From Cognatundibacterium griseum (GTDB taxonomy: Bacteria; Pseudomonadota; Gammaproteobacteria; Burkholderiales; Burkholderiaceae_D): 64,000 nt of DNA. Below the pieces are notes generated by a model. That model was given only the letters and a program-made list of their open reading frames with translations. It had not been told where the DNA came from and searched no databases. The DNA lies in contig NZ_JACOGC010000002.1 of the NCBI RefSeq assembly GCF_014284195.1, forward strand, positions 434,001-498,000. Direction: 5' to 3'. The position numbers and the translations under genes were made by a program. Below are positions 6,528 through 15,566 of the stretch, piece by piece. Numbering within the stretch: the stretch's first letter is position 1; each line of letters begins with the position of its first letter.

Positions 6528-7940
6528 ATGCCGGGCAGAAAGAACACGATGAATACCTTCACAGATCAGATCGATTTATCCGAAGCGCTGATACGTAAAT
6601 TCGACAAATCGGGTCCCCGTTACACCTCGTATCCGACCGCCGACCGTTTTCACAAGGACTTTACAGAGCAAAGCTATATCAGCTATCTGGAACAGCGTGC
6701 CGGAAAGAAAAACAATCCGCCACTGTCGGTCTATATTCATCTGCCTTTCTGCGAATCGCTCTGCTACTTTTGCGCCTGCAACAAAATCATTACCAAGGAT
6801 CACAGCCGCACTACGGAATATCTGCGCTATCTGGAAAAAGAAATGGAAATGGTGGCAGCGCATCTGGGACCGGATCGCCAGACGGTGCAACTGCATCTGG
6901 GCGGCGGCACGCCAACCTTTTTCAATTCGGATGAACTGGGGCAGCTGATGGCGATGGTGCGCCGGCATTTCACGTTTACTGCCGATGCCGAACTGGGTGT
7001 CGAGATCGATCCGCGCACCGTCAGACCGGAAACCCTGCAATCCCTTGCGGCGCTGGGCTTTAATCGCAACAGTTTTGGCGTGCAGGATTTTGACCCCGCG
7101 GTGCAGCAGGCAGTCAACCGCATTCAGCCATTCAGCATGGTTGAAGCTGCGGTCAAACAAAGCCGGGCGACGCATTTTGAATCAATCAATGCGGATCTGA
7201 TTTATGGCCTGCCCAAGCAAAACCTGGAAAGCTTCGGCCGCACACTGGATAGCCTGATTGCGCTGGCGCCGGATCGTATCGCTCTGTACAACTACGCCCA
7301 TTTGCCAAGCCGTTTCAAGGCGCAGCGCCAGATCATCGAAGCCGACCTGCCGAGCGCCGAAGACCGCCTGCAGATATTCATGATGTCCACCCGCCGCTTG
7401 CTGGACGCAGGCTACATCTACATCGGACTGGACCATTTTGCCAAACCCGATGATGAACTGAACAAAGCCCGCGAGAACCAGACCCTGCACCGTAATTTCC
7501 AGGGATACACAACCCGGGCGGAATGCGATCTGGTTGGTTTCGGTGTTTCAGCGATCGGCAAAGTCGGTGATTCTTACAGCCAGTCTGTGCGTACTATCAA
7601 AGAGTATTATCAGCATCTCGATGCCGGCCATCTGCCGGTGGAAAAAGGCATTGCGCTGAGTCAGGACGATTTGTTGCGCCGCGAAGTCATCATGACGCTG
7701 ATGTGCAGCATGCCTTTGTCAGTGCGCGCTGTTGAGCAAAAATATCAGATCAGTTTTGCCAGTTATTTTGCTGATGAGCTGGTGCAGCTCAAGCAATATG
7801 AAGAGGCCGGTTTCCTGGTCACTGACCCGGACATGATCCGCGTCACCACCAAGGGACGTCTGTTTGTCCGCGCGATTGCCATGACGTTTGATCATTACCT
7901 CAAAAAAGTCACGACTGCGACTTATTCCAAACTCATCTGA
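6528..7940 (+). CDS. hemN: Oxygen-independent coproporphyrinogen III dehydrogenase
   Basis: A 470-aa radical SAM enzyme that decarboxylates coproporphyrinogen III to protoporphyrinogen IX without oxygen. The SAM 4Fe-4S motif is CESLCYFCACN near residue 80, matching the HemN-specific CX3CX2CXC. LHLGGGTPTF follows as the SAM-binding glycine motif. The N-terminal KSGPRYTSYPTADRF is the HemN signature that separates it from HemW. The ATG at 6528 has AGGA upstream; the ATG at 6549 gives 463 aa, nearer the E. coli length, so the start is uncertain by seven codons. The Fnr-type promoter upstream predicts anaerobic induction. Its product is needed for cytochromes used in denitrification. Confidence 0.92.
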   Translation: MPGRKNTMNTFTDQIDLSEALIRKFDKSGPRYTSYPTADRFHKDFTEQSYISYLEQRAGKKNNPPLSVYIHLPFCESLCYFCACNKIITKDHSRTTEYLRYLEKEMEMVAAHLGPDRQTVQLHLGGGTPTFFNSDELGQLMAMVRRHFTFTADAELGVEIDPRTVRPETLQSLAALGFNRNSFGVQDFDPAVQQAVNRIQPFSMVEAAVKQSRATHFESINADLIYGLPKQNLESFGRTLDSLIALAPDRIALYNYAHLPSRFKAQRQIIEADLPSAEDRLQIFMMSTRRLLDAGYIYIGLDHFAKPDDELNKARENQTLHRNFQGYTTRAECDLVGFGVSAIGKVGDSYSQSVRTIKEYYQHLDAGHLPVEKGIALSQDDLLRREVIMTLMCSMPLSVRAVEQKYQISFASYFADELVQLKQYEEAGFLVTDPDMIRVTTKGRLFVRAIAMTFDHYLKKVTTATYSKLI

Positions 7941-7948
7941 ACCCGGAT

Positions 7949-8662
7949 TCAGATACCGCCATCGTTCTGTCTCAGTATGAACTGCGGAAAAAGCCGGGGC
8001 AGCTGTTCCAGTAATGACGGCGCCGGAAAAGTGGGGCAGGCGTTGCCGGAAGCTGGTGCAAACTGTTTGTCCCGGCATCCTTGCTGCCGCACTACCTGCA
8101 AGGCATAGCGGGCGACACCTTGCCGGGCCAGCTGCTGCGCGAGCAGCAACAGCTCATCCGGGCTGAACAGGGACGGATGCGCCGTGGTCCGGCATTCATA
8201 ATCCTTGCCGCTGTCGAGCAGCAGGCGCAGGCTGGCAGCATTGAGCGCTGCACTGCCGGCGCTGCGGGTGATCTCGTCAAAGCGGTGCGGCGGCGCCTTG
8301 ACATCCAGACCGATCCAGTCCGTCAGTGGCAGCACTGCCGCAAGCTGGCGCGGATAAATCCCCGCCGTATGCAGCCCGATATGAAACCCCAGTTCACGCA
8401 CTGCCTGCATGGCGTCAGGCAGTGCCGGGTCCATGGTCGGTTCGCCGCCGCTGAAGACGACAGCATCAATCAGCCCGGTGCGCCTTTGCAGCCAGGACAA
8501 AATGTCGCTCCATATCAGGGGGCTGGCAGAGGTTCTTTCCTGCAGATGCGGATTATGGCAATAACCACAGCGCCACGGACAGCCCTGCACAAAAATCACC
8601 GCCGCCAGTTTTCCCGGATAGTCACCGGTACTGAAAGGCGTCAGTCCGCCCGCTTTCAGCAC
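7949..8662 (-). CDS. nrdG: Anaerobic ribonucleoside-triphosphate reductase activating protein
   Basis: A 237-aa radical SAM activase that installs the glycyl radical on class III ribonucleotide reductase. The cluster motif is GCPWRCGYCHNP (CX3CX2C) near residues 28-35, with FSGGEPTMDP as the glycine-rich SAM contact. It is the longer NrdG2/PflA-like type rather than the 154-aa E. coli type. It starts at a GTG whose first bases overlap the stop of the small glycyl-radical gene (GTGCTGA), so translation is coupled. The gene is convergent with hemN, only 8 bp apart at their ends. Confidence 0.88.
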   Translation of the reverse strand: MLKAGGLTPFSTGDYPGKLAAVIFVQGCPWRCGYCHNPHLQERTSASPLIWSDILSWLQRRTGLIDAVVFSGGEPTMDPALPDAMQAVRELGFHIGLHTAGIYPRQLAAVLPLTDWIGLDVKAPPHRFDEITRSAGSAALNAASLRLLLDSGKDYECRTTAHPSLFSPDELLLLAQQLARQGVARYALQVVRQQGCRDKQFAPASGNACPTFPAPSLLEQLPRLFPQFILRQNDGGI

Positions 8663-8949
8663 GGGAGCTGGCCGCGATTGGGTTTGCCTGTATTGTTTTG
8701 CGCGGCTTCGGTGAAGTAGCGGCGTTCATGGAATTCGCCCTTTTTTCCGATGTTGAAGGAACTCATCGGACGGTGATAGCCCATGACGCGGGTCCAGATT
8801 TCACAGGGCTGGCGCTCTTCATCCGACAACATGAAGATGCCATTCTCAGCGACGGTACCGGTGACAGCATCCATGGCGGCACTCAAATTATGGTCAGCAG
8901 CAGAAGCATCAGGGCAGGGGGTGGTTTGTGGCGTCAAAGCAGGCATCAT
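8656..8949 (-). CDS. Separate glycyl-radical C-terminal domain of class III RNR
   Basis: A 97-aa protein whose second half, TRVMGYHRPMSSFNIGKKG then EFHERRYF, resembles the glycyl-radical tail that normally ends NrdD (RV-x-GY-x-RP, N-x-GK, EF-x-x-R-x-x-F). The radical Gly would be Gly57. It has its own AGGA ribosome site, starts 37 bp after the nrdD stop in a different frame and overlaps nrdG. The large NrdD stops right after its zinc-ribbon and lacks this tail. I infer that it supplies the radical domain in trans, as GrcA (YfiD) does for pyruvate formate-lyase. The first 40 residues are low in motifs and may be a linker. It may already be annotated elsewhere as a short NrdD. Confidence 0.7.
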   Translation of the reverse strand: MMPALTPQTTPCPDASAADHNLSAAMDAVTGTVAENGIFMLSDEERQPCEIWTRVMGYHRPMSSFNIGKKGEFHERRYFTEAAQNNTGKPNRGQLPC

Positions 8950-8986
8950 GATTTCCTGTCAGGTTGAAAAAATTGTCTGGTGGCGT

Positions 8987-11017
8987 TCAGGCTGCCAGCC
9001 GTTTGCGTGCGAGCAGTTCTTCATCGCATTTCGGGCAGAAACGGTGACTGCCGCCGAGGTAGCCATGTTTAGGGCAGATCGAGAAAGTCGGTGTTACCGT
9101 CAGATACGGCAGCGAAAAGCGCGACAAGGCCCGCTGCACCAGCGTCCGGCAGGCATCTGCGCTCGACAGCGGTTCTGTCATGTACAGATGCAGCACGGTG
9201 CCGCCGGTATATTTCCGTTGCAACGCGTCCTGTCTTTCCAGCGCTTCAAACGGATCATCGGTGAAGCCCACCGGCAACTGCGATGAGTTCGTGTAATACG
9301 GCATGTCTGCCGTTCCCGCCTGCAAAATATCGGGGAAGCGCTTACGGTCTTCTTTGGCGAAACGGTAGGTTGTTCCTTCTGCCGGTGTTGCTTCCAGGTT
9401 GTACATGTGACCGGTTTCTTCCTGAAATTCCAGCATGCGGCTTCGTATGTGATCGAGCATGCGGATTGCCATTGCGTAACCGGTTTCAGTCGTGATGTCT
9501 TCGCGGTCATCATAGAAATTGCGCAGCATTTCATGGATGCCATTCACACCCAGTGTGGAAAAATGATTGCGCAGCGTTCCCAGATAGCGCCTGGTGTAGG
9601 GAAACAGACCGTTGTCCATGTGACGCTGTATCACTTTCCGTTTGATCTCCAGACTGTTTTTTCCAAGCGTCAGCAGATGGTCCAGTGCCGCCAGTAGTCC
9701 GGCTTCGTTGCCGCGGTGCAGATAGCCAAGCCGGGCGCAATTGATCGTCACCACGCCGAGCGAGCCGGTTTGCTCGGCAGAACCGAACAGACCGTTGCCG
9801 CGCTTCAGCAGTTCCCGCAAATCGAGCTGCAGGCGACAGCACATCGAGCGGATCATATTCGGCTTCAGTTCGGAATTGATGAAATTCTGGAAGTAGGGCA
9901 GACCGTATCTGGCCGTCATTTCAAACAGGCGTTCTGCATTCGGGCTGTGCCAGTCGAAATCGGCAGTGATGTTGTAGGTCGGAATGGGAAAAGTGAATAC
10001 GCGGCCTTTGCTGTCACCGGCCATCATCACCTCGATGTAGGCGCGGTTGATCATGTCCATTTCTTCCTGCAGGTCACCGTAGCAGAAGGGCATTTCCTGA
10101 CCGGCGATATGCGGTATCTGCATCCGCAGGTCTTCCGGGCAAACCCAGTCAAAGGTCAGGTTGGTAAAGGGAGTCTGGGTACCCCAGCGCGAAGGAACAT
10201 TCAGGTTGTAAATCAGCTCCTGCATGGCCTGACGGACTGCCGCATAGTCCAGCCTGTCATGCCGCACATAGGGCGCCATGTAGGTATCAAACGAGCTGAA
10301 GGCCTGTGCTCCGGCCCATTCATTCTGCAGGGTGCCGAGAAAATTCACGATCTGTCCGGCGGCGCTGGAAAAATGATGCGGCGCGCCGGATTCTATTTTT
10401 CCCGGAACACCATTGAGTCCCTCATTCAGCAAGGTCCGCAGCGACCAGCCAGCGCAATAACCTGACAGCATATCGAGATCGTGAATATGCAGATCGGCAG
10501 CACGGTGTGCAGCGCCGATTTCCGGCGGATAAACATGGTTCAGCCAATAGTTGGCAATGACTTTGCCGGAGACATTCAAAATCAGGCCACCCAGCGAATA
10601 GCCCTGATTCGCGTTGGCATTGACCCGCCAGTCCTGCTGTTGCAGATATTCGTTGACGGAGGACTCCACATCCACCATGGTCTGCCGGTCCTGCCGCAAT
10701 TGCTGGTGCTGCGTCCGGTACACCACATAGGCGCGCAGGGTAATCCGCCAGCCAGCATCAAACAGTGTTGCTTCGACTTCATCCTGAATCTGTTCGACCG
10801 TTACCGCCGCCGGTTCCGGTAAGGCGGCAAGCCTGTCGGTCACTTGTGCGGTCAGCGTGGACGCTGCTGCGGCATCCAGTTCTCCGCAGGCCTGGCCGGC
10901 ACGCAAAATCGCAGAATGAATTTTGGCGGCATCAAAAATCTGGGATGCGCCATTGCGCTTGATGACTTGTTGCAGGCCGTGGCGACGGGTGGAGGCAGGA
11001 ACGGAAGTGAGCGTCAT
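8987..11017 (-). CDS. nrdD: Class III anaerobic ribonucleoside-triphosphate reductase, large chain lacking radical tail
   Basis: A 676-aa chain from the ATG at 11017 (AGAG ribosome site); a GTG six codons upstream is less likely. An ATP-cone (about 15-108) predicts ATP/dATP control. Active-site cysteines are probably Cys188 (LSGYCAGWSL) and Cys393 or Cys394 (MIRSMCCRLQ). The chain ends with a zinc-ribbon-like CPKHGY...FCPKCDEE, one ligand being His instead of Cys, then ARKRLAA and stop. The expected glycyl-radical motif is missing and is found in the next gene. The enzyme makes dNTPs without oxygen. Upstream are an Fnr-type box and two NrdR-like boxes. Confidence 0.88.
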   Translation of the reverse strand: MTLTSVPASTRRHGLQQVIKRNGASQIFDAAKIHSAILRAGQACGELDAAAASTLTAQVTDRLAALPEPAAVTVEQIQDEVEATLFDAGWRITLRAYVVYRTQHQQLRQDRQTMVDVESSVNEYLQQQDWRVNANANQGYSLGGLILNVSGKVIANYWLNHVYPPEIGAAHRAADLHIHDLDMLSGYCAGWSLRTLLNEGLNGVPGKIESGAPHHFSSAAGQIVNFLGTLQNEWAGAQAFSSFDTYMAPYVRHDRLDYAAVRQAMQELIYNLNVPSRWGTQTPFTNLTFDWVCPEDLRMQIPHIAGQEMPFCYGDLQEEMDMINRAYIEVMMAGDSKGRVFTFPIPTYNITADFDWHSPNAERLFEMTARYGLPYFQNFINSELKPNMIRSMCCRLQLDLRELLKRGNGLFGSAEQTGSLGVVTINCARLGYLHRGNEAGLLAALDHLLTLGKNSLEIKRKVIQRHMDNGLFPYTRRYLGTLRNHFSTLGVNGIHEMLRNFYDDREDITTETGYAMAIRMLDHIRSRMLEFQEETGHMYNLEATPAEGTTYRFAKEDRKRFPDILQAGTADMPYYTNSSQLPVGFTDDPFEALERQDALQRKYTGGTVLHLYMTEPLSSADACRTLVQRALSRFSLPYLTVTPTFSICPKHGYLGGSHRFCPKCDEELLARKRLAA

Positions 11018-11031
11018 TTTAATCTCTGAAA

Positions 11032-11047
11032 ACACTATATGTTGTGT
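11032..11047. promoter_or_regulatory. NrdR box, proximal, before nrdD
   Basis: ACACTATATGTTGTGT matches the 16-bp NrdR consensus (ACACTATATATAGTGT) at 14 of 16 positions. It is flanked by 11-bp inverted arms, AATCTCTGAAA at 11021-11031 and TTTCAGAGATT at 11049-11059. In the nrdD transcript these arms could pair and bury the AGAG ribosome site. It lies 14 bp from the nrdD start. Confidence 0.65.
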
Positions 11048-11061
11048 GTTTCAGAGATTAA

Positions 11062-13280: not shown

Positions 13281-15566
13281 TCAGGCACGCTTTGCTGCGC
13301 CGGCAGCTTCACCGGTCAGGCTGGCTTGTGTTGCCTGTTTGCCTGTCAGCAGGCGGATGGCGAACACTGCCAGGCATAAGGTGCCGACGGCAAACACGAC
13401 GTCACCCGGAACACGCAACCAGACAGCTGTTTCCATGAAATGCGAATGGATGACTTCTGGTGAGCGGGCATACCACATGCCTTTGGTGATGCTGGCGGCA
13501 GCCTGGTAGATACCGGCAGGAACCAGCGAGATAAACACCATCATCGCAAGGCCGATATTCAGCAGCCAGAAGGTTGCCTGCAACAGCTTGTCTGACCATG
13601 CCAGTCTGGAAGACAGTCCACGCAGGCAGAACAGCAGCAGGCCGATACCGAGCATGCCATAGACGCCGAACAGCGCTGCATGACCATGTGCAGCAGTCAT
13701 GTTCAGACCTTGCATGTAGTACAGGGCGATCGGTGTATTGATCGAGAAGCCGAGCAGACCTGCACCGACGGTATTCCAGAAACCGACAGCGATAAAGCAC
13801 AGGATGGACCATTTGTACGACTGTACCCAAGGGGCAGCTTTAGAGCGCTGGTAGTTGCGATAGGCTTCCATGCCGATCATTGCCAGTGGCACAACTTCCA
13901 GTGCGGAGAACATCGCACCGATGGCAATCACAAAGGTGGGGGTGCCGGTAAAATACAGGTGATGCAATGTGCCCAGAATGCCGCCGAACAGGAACACGAT
14001 GGTTTCGAGGATGATCGCACTGTTCGCAGTCGCTGCATGAATCAGGCCAAGGCGGGTGAACAGCAGCGCGATGACGGCAGTTGCAAACACTTCAAAGAAG
14101 CCCTCTACCCACAGGTGAACCAGCCACCAGCGCCAGTATTCGATCATCGAGTAGTGGGTATGCTGGCCCCAGGTCAGGGAAGTGGCATAGAAGCCGCCAA
14201 TACACATGGCCGACAGGAACACCATGGCGATCAGGCCGCGGCTGTCAGACGGTGTTTTCAGGGCGGGCATCAGACCGCGACCTAACAGGGTGACCCAGAA
14301 CAGCAGGCCGACGAACAGCAGCAACTGCCATACCCGTCCCATGCTGGTGAATTCCAGACCCTGATTACCGAGCCAGAAAGCGAATTCATTGCCTTTGTGT
14401 TGCAGACTGCCTAACCAGCCCATGGCGGTCGAGCCGACTACGATAAACAGCAGCGCATAAAACAACAGGTTGACGCCGAGTTTCTGGTACTTCGGCTCAT
14501 GACCGGAAATAGCCGGTGCGATATACAGGCCAGTTGCCAGCCATGCTGTAGCAATCCATAACACTGCGAACTGGGTATGAATTGTGCGGCTGACTGTAAA
14601 TGGCAGGATATCTGCCAATGGGAAGCCGAAGAAACTGTGGCCTTCAACCGCATAGTGCGCTGTAATCACCCCGAATCCGACCTGCGCCAGAATCAGACCG
14701 ATCACCACGTAAAAGTACTTTCTGGTTGCCAGCATGGAAGGCGTTGGCTTCAGGCTGAATAAAGGGTCCGCTTTAGGCGGGGTTGGATCAGTTGCTTCTT
14801 TGCTGGTCGAATGCACGAACAGCATGGTCGCAATTGCACCGATCATCAGGATCACACTGGCAATCGACCAGATACCGGCGCCAGCTGTCGGTGTGTTATT
14901 CACCAGCGGTTCATGCGGCCAGTTACTGGTGTAGCTCAGTTCTGCTGCACCAGGGCGGTCAGTGGCAGCAGCCCATGCAGACCAGAAGAAGAAGGCAGGG
15001 AGTGATTGCAAATCCTGAACATCAGGCAAGGTACCTTTATTCATTGCATACTGCTCACGCAATTTTTCCAGTGCCGGGTCATTGCCAAACAGGCCGATGT
15101 AATGCTGTGCCACTTGCTGGACAGCGGCTGCGCGCTCTGGTGACAGTATGATCTTGCCAGACTGTTCATCATAGGTATTACGGCGCATTTCATCCTTCAG
15201 ACGTGCTTTCAGCTCGGCCTGACGACCTGCGTTCAGCTGCTCGAAGGTTTGCTGAAACTCTTTCTGTGCCCAGATATCGAGCAATGCCAGAGATTCGCGG
15301 TGCAACCAGTCTGCAGACCAGTCAGGGGCGACATAACTGCCGTGGCCCCAGACCGTACCCAATTGCTGACCGCCTGCAGAGAGCCAGGATCCCTGACCGC
15401 GGTCCACTTGTCCTTCGGTGAATAAAATCTTGCCGTCAGTGCTGACGACCTGTTTAGGAATAGGGGGAGCTGTGAGATAAATCTCTGTTCCTACCCAACC
15501 GAGAACGGTAAATGATAGGACACAGATCACAGCGAGCCAGGTCCAGAGTTTGCGCGTGGCATGCAT
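13281..15566 (-). CDS. norB: Quinol-dependent nitric oxide reductase (qNOR)
   Basis: A 761-aa haem-copper oxidase-family protein that reduces 2 NO to N2O with ubiquinol electrons. It is the long single-subunit form: an N-terminal helix (about 12-32), a periplasmic domain of about 200 residues standing in for the NorC cytochrome but with no CxxCH, then about 13 helices. Haem/FeB-type His motifs are visible, for example HTQFAVLW, RWWLVHLWVEGFFEV and LHHLYFTGTP. AAGGAA precedes the ATG. Two NsrR-like boxes lie in the divergent region shared with nsrR, predicting de-repression by NO. No norC follows, as expected for qNOR. Confidence 0.95.
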   Translation of the reverse strand: MHATRKLWTWLAVICVLSFTVLGWVGTEIYLTAPPIPKQVVSTDGKILFTEGQVDRGQGSWLSAGGQQLGTVWGHGSYVAPDWSADWLHRESLALLDIWAQKEFQQTFEQLNAGRQAELKARLKDEMRRNTYDEQSGKIILSPERAAAVQQVAQHYIGLFGNDPALEKLREQYAMNKGTLPDVQDLQSLPAFFFWSAWAAATDRPGAAELSYTSNWPHEPLVNNTPTAGAGIWSIASVILMIGAIATMLFVHSTSKEATDPTPPKADPLFSLKPTPSMLATRKYFYVVIGLILAQVGFGVITAHYAVEGHSFFGFPLADILPFTVSRTIHTQFAVLWIATAWLATGLYIAPAISGHEPKYQKLGVNLLFYALLFIVVGSTAMGWLGSLQHKGNEFAFWLGNQGLEFTSMGRVWQLLLFVGLLFWVTLLGRGLMPALKTPSDSRGLIAMVFLSAMCIGGFYATSLTWGQHTHYSMIEYWRWWLVHLWVEGFFEVFATAVIALLFTRLGLIHAATANSAIILETIVFLFGGILGTLHHLYFTGTPTFVIAIGAMFSALEVVPLAMIGMEAYRNYQRSKAAPWVQSYKWSILCFIAVGFWNTVGAGLLGFSINTPIALYYMQGLNMTAAHGHAALFGVYGMLGIGLLLFCLRGLSSRLAWSDKLLQATFWLLNIGLAMMVFISLVPAGIYQAAASITKGMWYARSPEVIHSHFMETAVWLRVPGDVVFAVGTLCLAVFAIRLLTGKQATQASLTGEAAGAAKRA

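Follow-up and report, generated by a model that had tools for sequence, protein, structure and literature searches.

A class III (anaerobic) ribonucleotide reductase (RNR) made of two chains, whose radical chain can be supplied separately from the catalytic one, is in our judgement what the nrdD locus of Cognatundibacterium griseum encodes, and we put the probability of this reading at roughly 0.87. The locus lies within a stretch of 64,000 nucleotides (nt), hereafter the window (contig NZ_JACOGC010000002.1, positions 434,001 to 498,000 of the forward strand), in which the gene for the catalytic chain, here called the body, is followed by a small gene for the glycyl-radical chain, here called the tail, and by the activase gene nrdG. 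The two-chain nature that we propose for the enzyme is well supported by the comparison of sequences among relatives.

Organization of the locus

The original prediction, made from the letters of the window, had described a NrdD of 676 amino acids (aa) with an ATP-cone, both active-site cysteine regions and a terminal zinc ribbon and without a radical tail, and, 37 nt downstream in another frame, a 97-aa tail gene that has its own ribosome site, carries the radical motif with Gly57 and is overlapped by nrdG. All of these traits were recovered in the features that follow, each of which lies on the minus strand.

8987..11017, minus: nrdD body, the catalytic chain, 676 aa (ATG at 11017, stop at 8987), with ATP-cone, NRDD barrel and zinc ribbon
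10703..10969, minus: ATP-cone domain of the body, residues 17-105 (PF03477)
9833..9847, minus: SMCCR cysteines, body residues 391-395, invariant in alignment A2 and called finger loop by analogy with the NrdD literature
9026..9076, minus: CxxH...CxxC zinc ribbon, body residues 648-664, close to the stop (read in sequence)
8952..8957, minus: AGGAAA, the Shine-Dalgarno (SD)-like site of the tail gene (read in sequence)
8656..8949, minus: separate glycyl-radical tail protein, 97 aa, matching NRDD positions 531-562
8707..8817, minus: conserved tail core, residues 45-81, ERQPCEIWTRVMGYHRP...FHERRYFTE (sequence comparison)
8779..8781, minus: codon of Gly57, the predicted radical glycine (motif and superposition)
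7949..8662, minus: nrdG2-type radical-SAM activase gene, GTG start at 8662 (TIGR02495)

The body matches the NRDD family (PF13597) with 572.2 bits against a cut-off of 26.2, and PRK08270 with 1119.4 bits against a cut-off of 548; a Pfam scan at an E-value of 0.001 returned NRDD and ATP-cone as its sole families and did not find the Ribonuc_red_lgC barrel. The NRDD match covers profile positions 2-531 of 562, and the glycyl-radical motif is absent from the 676-aa chain. In the tail NRDD is the sole Pfam family at the same threshold, and the PF01228 Gly_radical domain was found neither there nor on any protein of the genome. When the tail was compared with solved structures, nothing but chance-like matches to unrelated viral glycoproteins came back (E 0.25-0.69). 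An AGGA stands 5-8 nt 5' of the tail ATG, the gap between the body and the differently framed tail gene comprises positions 8950-8986, and nrdG overlaps the tail gene by 7 nt; its product exceeds the TIGR02495 cut-off (195.9 against 131.15 bits), and a cognate activase gene is thus present.

It had also been considered that a full-length NrdD might exist elsewhere. A profile search of the genome (3.6 Mb, reported 100% complete) found one body and one tail, adjacent to each other, and no second NrdD anywhere; two further RNR large chains (PF02867) are encoded. The NrdD of Pseudomonas aeruginosa has 675 aa. Siedow et al. reportedly gave NrdD as 76.2 kDa, a mass that would fit 676 aa.

The split among relatives

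Three genome samples were searched, comprising 145 genomes of the family, 398 of the phylum and 97 of Omnitrophota. Within the family 36 genomes have a NRDD match, and in 30 of these the search table gives a body and a separate tail; 26 of the 30 were read in sequence and all 26 proved separate, the remaining four (G068, G072, G125, G137) being classed by the table alone. In five more of the 36 every NrdD is fused and of another type, and in one (G108) a body was seen without a tail. A NRDD match occurs in 57 genomes of the phylum sample, of which 15 are split (all read in sequence, G000 included), 41 carry a single frame that matches the profile through to its end, and one (G477) gives a partial match. 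Among the Omnitrophota 34 of the 97 genomes match, and split and fused forms both occur.

The same arrangement prevails at the named loci, which are the best 80 of at least 559 confirmed relatives and include some near-copies (L139, L143): a separate tail lies downstream of the body in 75, no body is found within the locus in four (L126, L129, L133, L148), and in the complete chromosome of Massilia sp. H-1 (L105) the body is broken over several frames, a break that may reflect either assembly errors or decay. The record titles of these relatives include Massilia, Pusillimonas, Sutterella, Rhodoferax, Rhodopseudomonas, Magnetospirillum, and Omnitrophica and Elusimicrobia bins. The original suggestion that the split might be general thus holds across this NrdD clade, and the comparison indicates a class III RNR that truly consists of two chains.

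We consider it very improbable that a frameshift or the readthrough of a stop produces a fused chain of which the small reading frame is merely a part. The tail is indeed in frame with the body in 20 of the 75 loci, 19 of which have a single intervening stop; in the remaining 55, however, it occupies the two other frames (20/23/32 over the three), the body stops are mixed (TGA/TAA/TAG, 49/19/7), and an ATG with a 4-6-nt SD-like match opens the tail in 75 of 75, a count that is favourable because the start was chosen by that match. The distance between body and tail ranges from -41 to 298 nt with a median of 24, and in genome G454 the tail even lies 9.5 kb from the body, beside a nrdG-like gene. 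We therefore reject frameshifting and readthrough on account of the varying tail frames, the mixed stops and the separate starts. In the window itself a single frame error could not fuse the two genes, because the frame of the tail is interrupted by a stop after the end of NrdD and before the tail ATG; nor does the possibility, raised beforehand, that the two frames would join into one chain find support, relatives being split in all three frames.

An assembly error or a decaying gene has, in our view, a next to negligible chance of accounting for the split. Broken bodies do occur in a few loci (L105, L098, L034, L179), but most relatives of the same type break at one and the same place, between the zinc ribbon and the radical loop, the genome has just one copy of the body, and a median dN/dS of 0.13 (1397 of 3160 pairs with usable dS) shows purifying selection on the tail core. 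The conserved split, the selection and the single copy lead us to reject this explanation, and a sequencing error is likewise dismissed because a separate tail recurs at 75 of 80 named loci, in all three frames and with a core under selection.

A tree of bodies (191 rows with duplicates among them, thinned to 139, namely 98 split and 41 fused) requires 7 changes between the split and the fused state, against 35.7 in shuffles, and at least 5 of the 7 are forced by well-supported branches. The labels came from motif searches and were corrected by sequence reading, which reset L003-L005 to fused and L069, L072, L087 and L073 to split; the tree search was quick, used no mixture model and carries a long-branch warning for L222, L077, L074 and L069. 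In our tentative reading of the tree a single large clade is split, with three fused members (L076, L173, L174) nested inside it; splitting occurred once or twice more among the Omnitrophota NrdDs with RVTGF/RVVGY motifs (L207, L208, L210, L212; L209), and once more in a distant type (G437, G504), where a small tail reading frame with its own AAAGGG and ATG follows a TAG; since the tree is unrooted and quick, these counts of splits and re-fusions are tentative.

Separate tails were also seen in NrdD of the RRITGYLVG type (L069, L072, L087, corresponding to G504 and G437; L397, L413-L417, L467), and L413-L417 share, by eye, a region of about 50 aa ahead of the tail that is perhaps a docking domain. 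In the split Omnitrophota bodies L207, L208 and L210 the fourth cysteine of the zinc ribbon is missing (e.g. CPNH...CPYE) and the tail keeps a Cys before EVF, so that a zinc site shared between the two chains is possible.

The docking of tail onto body, which had been proposed as a check of the split, was obtained by structure prediction. A first model, whose alignment lacked fused viral NrdDs, was weak (pLDDT 69, pTM 0.62) and was replaced using a deeper alignment; in the second, confident model the tail docks in the manner seen in T4 and Thermotoga NrdD and Gly57 falls on the radical glycine, and the modelled pair superposes on the NrdD structures of T4, Thermotoga maritima, Prevotella copri and Streptococcus thermophilus. 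From the motif and this superposition Gly57 is predicted to carry the radical. Three observations weigh against the two-chain reading. The alignment behind the confident model included fused viral NrdDs and treated body and tail as a single chain, for which reason the docking is partly built into the model; three P. copri entries are one residue off a simple offset (Gly711 falls at 745); and fused relatives (Acidiphilium, Actinomyces oris, G519) sit inside the main split clade, and separateness is therefore not obligatory.

Tails away from a body

Several bacterial genomes carry tails in excess of those beside nrdD. Besides a body and the tail next to it, G542 encodes a second tail at another site. 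In G124 and in G136 a single body and its tail are accompanied by two additional tails, which belong to a distinct QWNDGK type; all four of these additional tails are preceded by an SD-like stretch and start with ATG, and one of them lies near phage tail-fibre and baseplate genes. In a Sutterella bin (G540) a body broken over two matches and its adjacent tail are accompanied by another NrdD of fused type and by a second tail on another contig; a further bin (G541) has a tail and no body was found in it. Magnetospirillum fulvum also has a body with adjacent tail and a second copy elsewhere (L133, 4171-4701), a single reading frame, immediately upstream of a PF02867 RNR, in which an ATP-cone-like remnant is joined to an intact radical tail and which looks, from its sequence, like a deleted nrdD.

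Tail matches were found in 28 PLSDB plasmid records, 13 of which were read in sequence. Nine of the 13 have a separate tail after the body (two of these bodies, L034 and L179, being frame-broken), two are fused (Actinomyces oris and Acidiphilium multivorum), and two have a tail and no body in the fetched stretch (Allochromatium vinosum pALVIN01 and A. tepidum pAt1). On pHG1 of Cupriavidus necator H16 a 676-aa body, a 66-aa 'nrdD' and nrdG make up a split locus; NrdDG of this strain is reported as essential for denitrification. The metallidurans pair is numbered Rmet_5137 and Rmet_5139 in the cited passage, and the skipped number would fit the tail gene at L175.

In IMG/VR 189 stretches encode a tail. 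Among the best 80 of these, 79 have no body within the locus and one has a split body; a NRDD search of 44 whole records of the 80 (15-212 kb) found the tail only in all 44 (42 above the family cut-off), where the missing body is not proof of absence because none of the records was rated 90% complete. Among the 79 viral tails 63 distinct cores occur, which form 26 clusters at 80% identity, and 77 of the tails have a start codon (71 ATG; 11 of the 77 without an SD-like match). All eight loci scanned for neighbours have phage families beside the tail, namely terminase, portal, protease, tape measure, DNA polymerase, primase, clamp loader, integrase and tail fibre. The tail of the window and four phage tails all match phrog_4132, for which PHROGs lists unknown function.

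The named phage records speak against a wide occurrence in cultured phages: of 50,697 records, 2 are matched with a phage tail as query and none with the window tail. One of the two is fused; the other is ANMV-1 (L312, KP703175), where the match falls on a 144-aa protein annotated as anaerobic ribonucleoside triphosphate reductase. A NRDD search of its whole 38-kb record finds only positions 519-562, that is the tail, and no body, and on this sequence evidence we take the annotated reductase to be a stand-alone tail, unlike the published reading, in whose cited passage an oxygen-sensitive RNR is described (PMC4372165). Viral NrdD bodies of other types were also seen: 162 body reading frames received scripted labels of fused (106), split (17), without C-terminal end (20) and no tail recognised (19). 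In 4 of the 17 labelled split (L330, L348, L356, L388) the tail-like match is weak or not directly downstream, 7 of the 19 are followed within 1.5 kb by a separate RITGY-type tail, and at least 3 others of the 19 look fused, with a motif outside the search pattern.

The extra tails away from nrdD and the stand-alone tails on plasmids and in phages suggest that the tail may be exchangeable, a property that would fit facultative denitrifiers, which often meet oxygen. We would give even odds to the fuller proposal that the radical loop is a free, exchangeable protein cofactor, replaced after cleavage by oxygen while the large body is used again, and that phages of anaerobic or denitrifying hosts carry just its gene of about 60 aa (phrog_4132) so as to maintain or revive the anaerobic dNTP supply of the host; the tail would then be an equivalent, for nucleotide reductase, of GrcA and T4 Y06I. 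A permanent two-chain enzyme, in which the tail is a bound structural subunit and the split is historical with no role in repair or exchange, is possible, and we lean away from it: the tail that follows the body in 75 of 80 named loci fits a fixed stoichiometry, and three fused relatives are nested in the split clade, but tails away from the operon (G542, G124, G136, the Sutterella bin, the remnant-like M. fulvum copy) and tails lacking a body, as in 79 of the 80 virus loci with a tail, are not what one would expect of a fixed subunit. It is unlikely, in our estimation, that the phage tails are decoys which shut the host RNR down or that they serve another protein. No body was found alongside them, and the function proposed for them is a prediction from sequence; yet 65 of the 79 viral cores share the commonest length, and among these the radical glycine and its neighbours M and Y are invariant, as are R, P, N, G, K, E and R after it, which would be expected if radical chemistry were kept, and T4 carries an analogous chain for pyruvate formate-lyase (PFL), according to the cited passages of PMC8683613.

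Proposed mechanism, known systems and neighbourhood

In the mechanism that we propose for the two-chain enzyme, the body contributes the ATP-cone, a ten-stranded barrel with the cysteine finger loop, and the zinc ribbon, and the separately translated tail would insert its conserved 37 or so residues into the barrel like the C-terminal loop of an ordinary NrdD, placing Gly57, as the model predicts, beside the finger-loop cysteines. NrdG would install the radical on Gly57, and during turnover the radical would shuttle between this glycine and a cysteine of the body. After oxygen has cleaved a tail, a new one might take its place on the same body, and phages might supply a tail so as to use or revive the body of the host.

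Single-chain NrdD (T4, T. maritima, P. copri, S. thermophilus; PRK08270) shares with this system the ATP-cone, the barrel, the finger-loop cysteines, the zinc ribbon, the radical-loop motif and the NrdG partner, whereas here a second polypeptide, translated from a start site of its own, carries the radical loop. In the cited passages class III RNR consists of one NrdD chain and an activase, and in the literature searched, mostly abstracts and passages and with most subscription journals outside its scope, no description of a separate NrdD radical chain was found. RNRs in two polypeptides are represented by NrdJa/NrdJb, the split class II RNR of Pseudomonas, by Aeh1 NrdA-a/-b and by interrupted phage nrdD; the cited passages (PMC3267527, PMC9669993, PMC3653736) attribute the split phage genes to introns, inteins, endonucleases or unknown causes and do not describe a separation of the glycyl loop.

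The likeness to GrcA, drawn in the original prediction, stands as a functional analogy and fails as kinship. GrcA/YfiD of Escherichia coli and Y06I of phage T4, the spare parts of PFL, are likewise small separate glycyl-radical C-termini that complete a larger enzyme, and T4 carries Y06I as many virus contigs here carry the tail; in contrast, the present tail belongs to a different enzyme and family, without a PF01228 match, and since its own body lacks a tail it should be a required part and not only a spare. In the passages cited from Andorfer 2021 (PMC8683613) GrcA/YfiD and Y06I are the only validated cases, and other glycyl radical enzymes might have such parts; the present findings would make that printed question, of spare-part chains for enzymes other than PFL, testable. 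They would also suggest a function for the phage family phrog_4132 and change the reading of virus records such as that of ANMV-1. Should a separate radical chain be the rule in this large clade, what is annotated there as NrdD would be an incomplete enzyme, and assays with NrdD and NrdG only would fail.

Just upstream of nrdD lies one further feature, with no strand assigned.

11019-11031 / 11049-11061: arms of a 13-bp perfect inverted repeat enclosing ACACTATATGTTGTGT

The enclosed ACACTATATGTTGTGT (11032..11047) resembles what we take to be the consensus of the NrdR box. The reading frame at 13281-15566 reads by eye, in translation, like a quinol-type nitric oxide reductase, and hemN lies at 6528-7940, so that the surroundings of nrdD read like an anaerobic-respiration neighbourhood. 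The nrdD of pHG1 is likewise near a nitric-oxide reductase.
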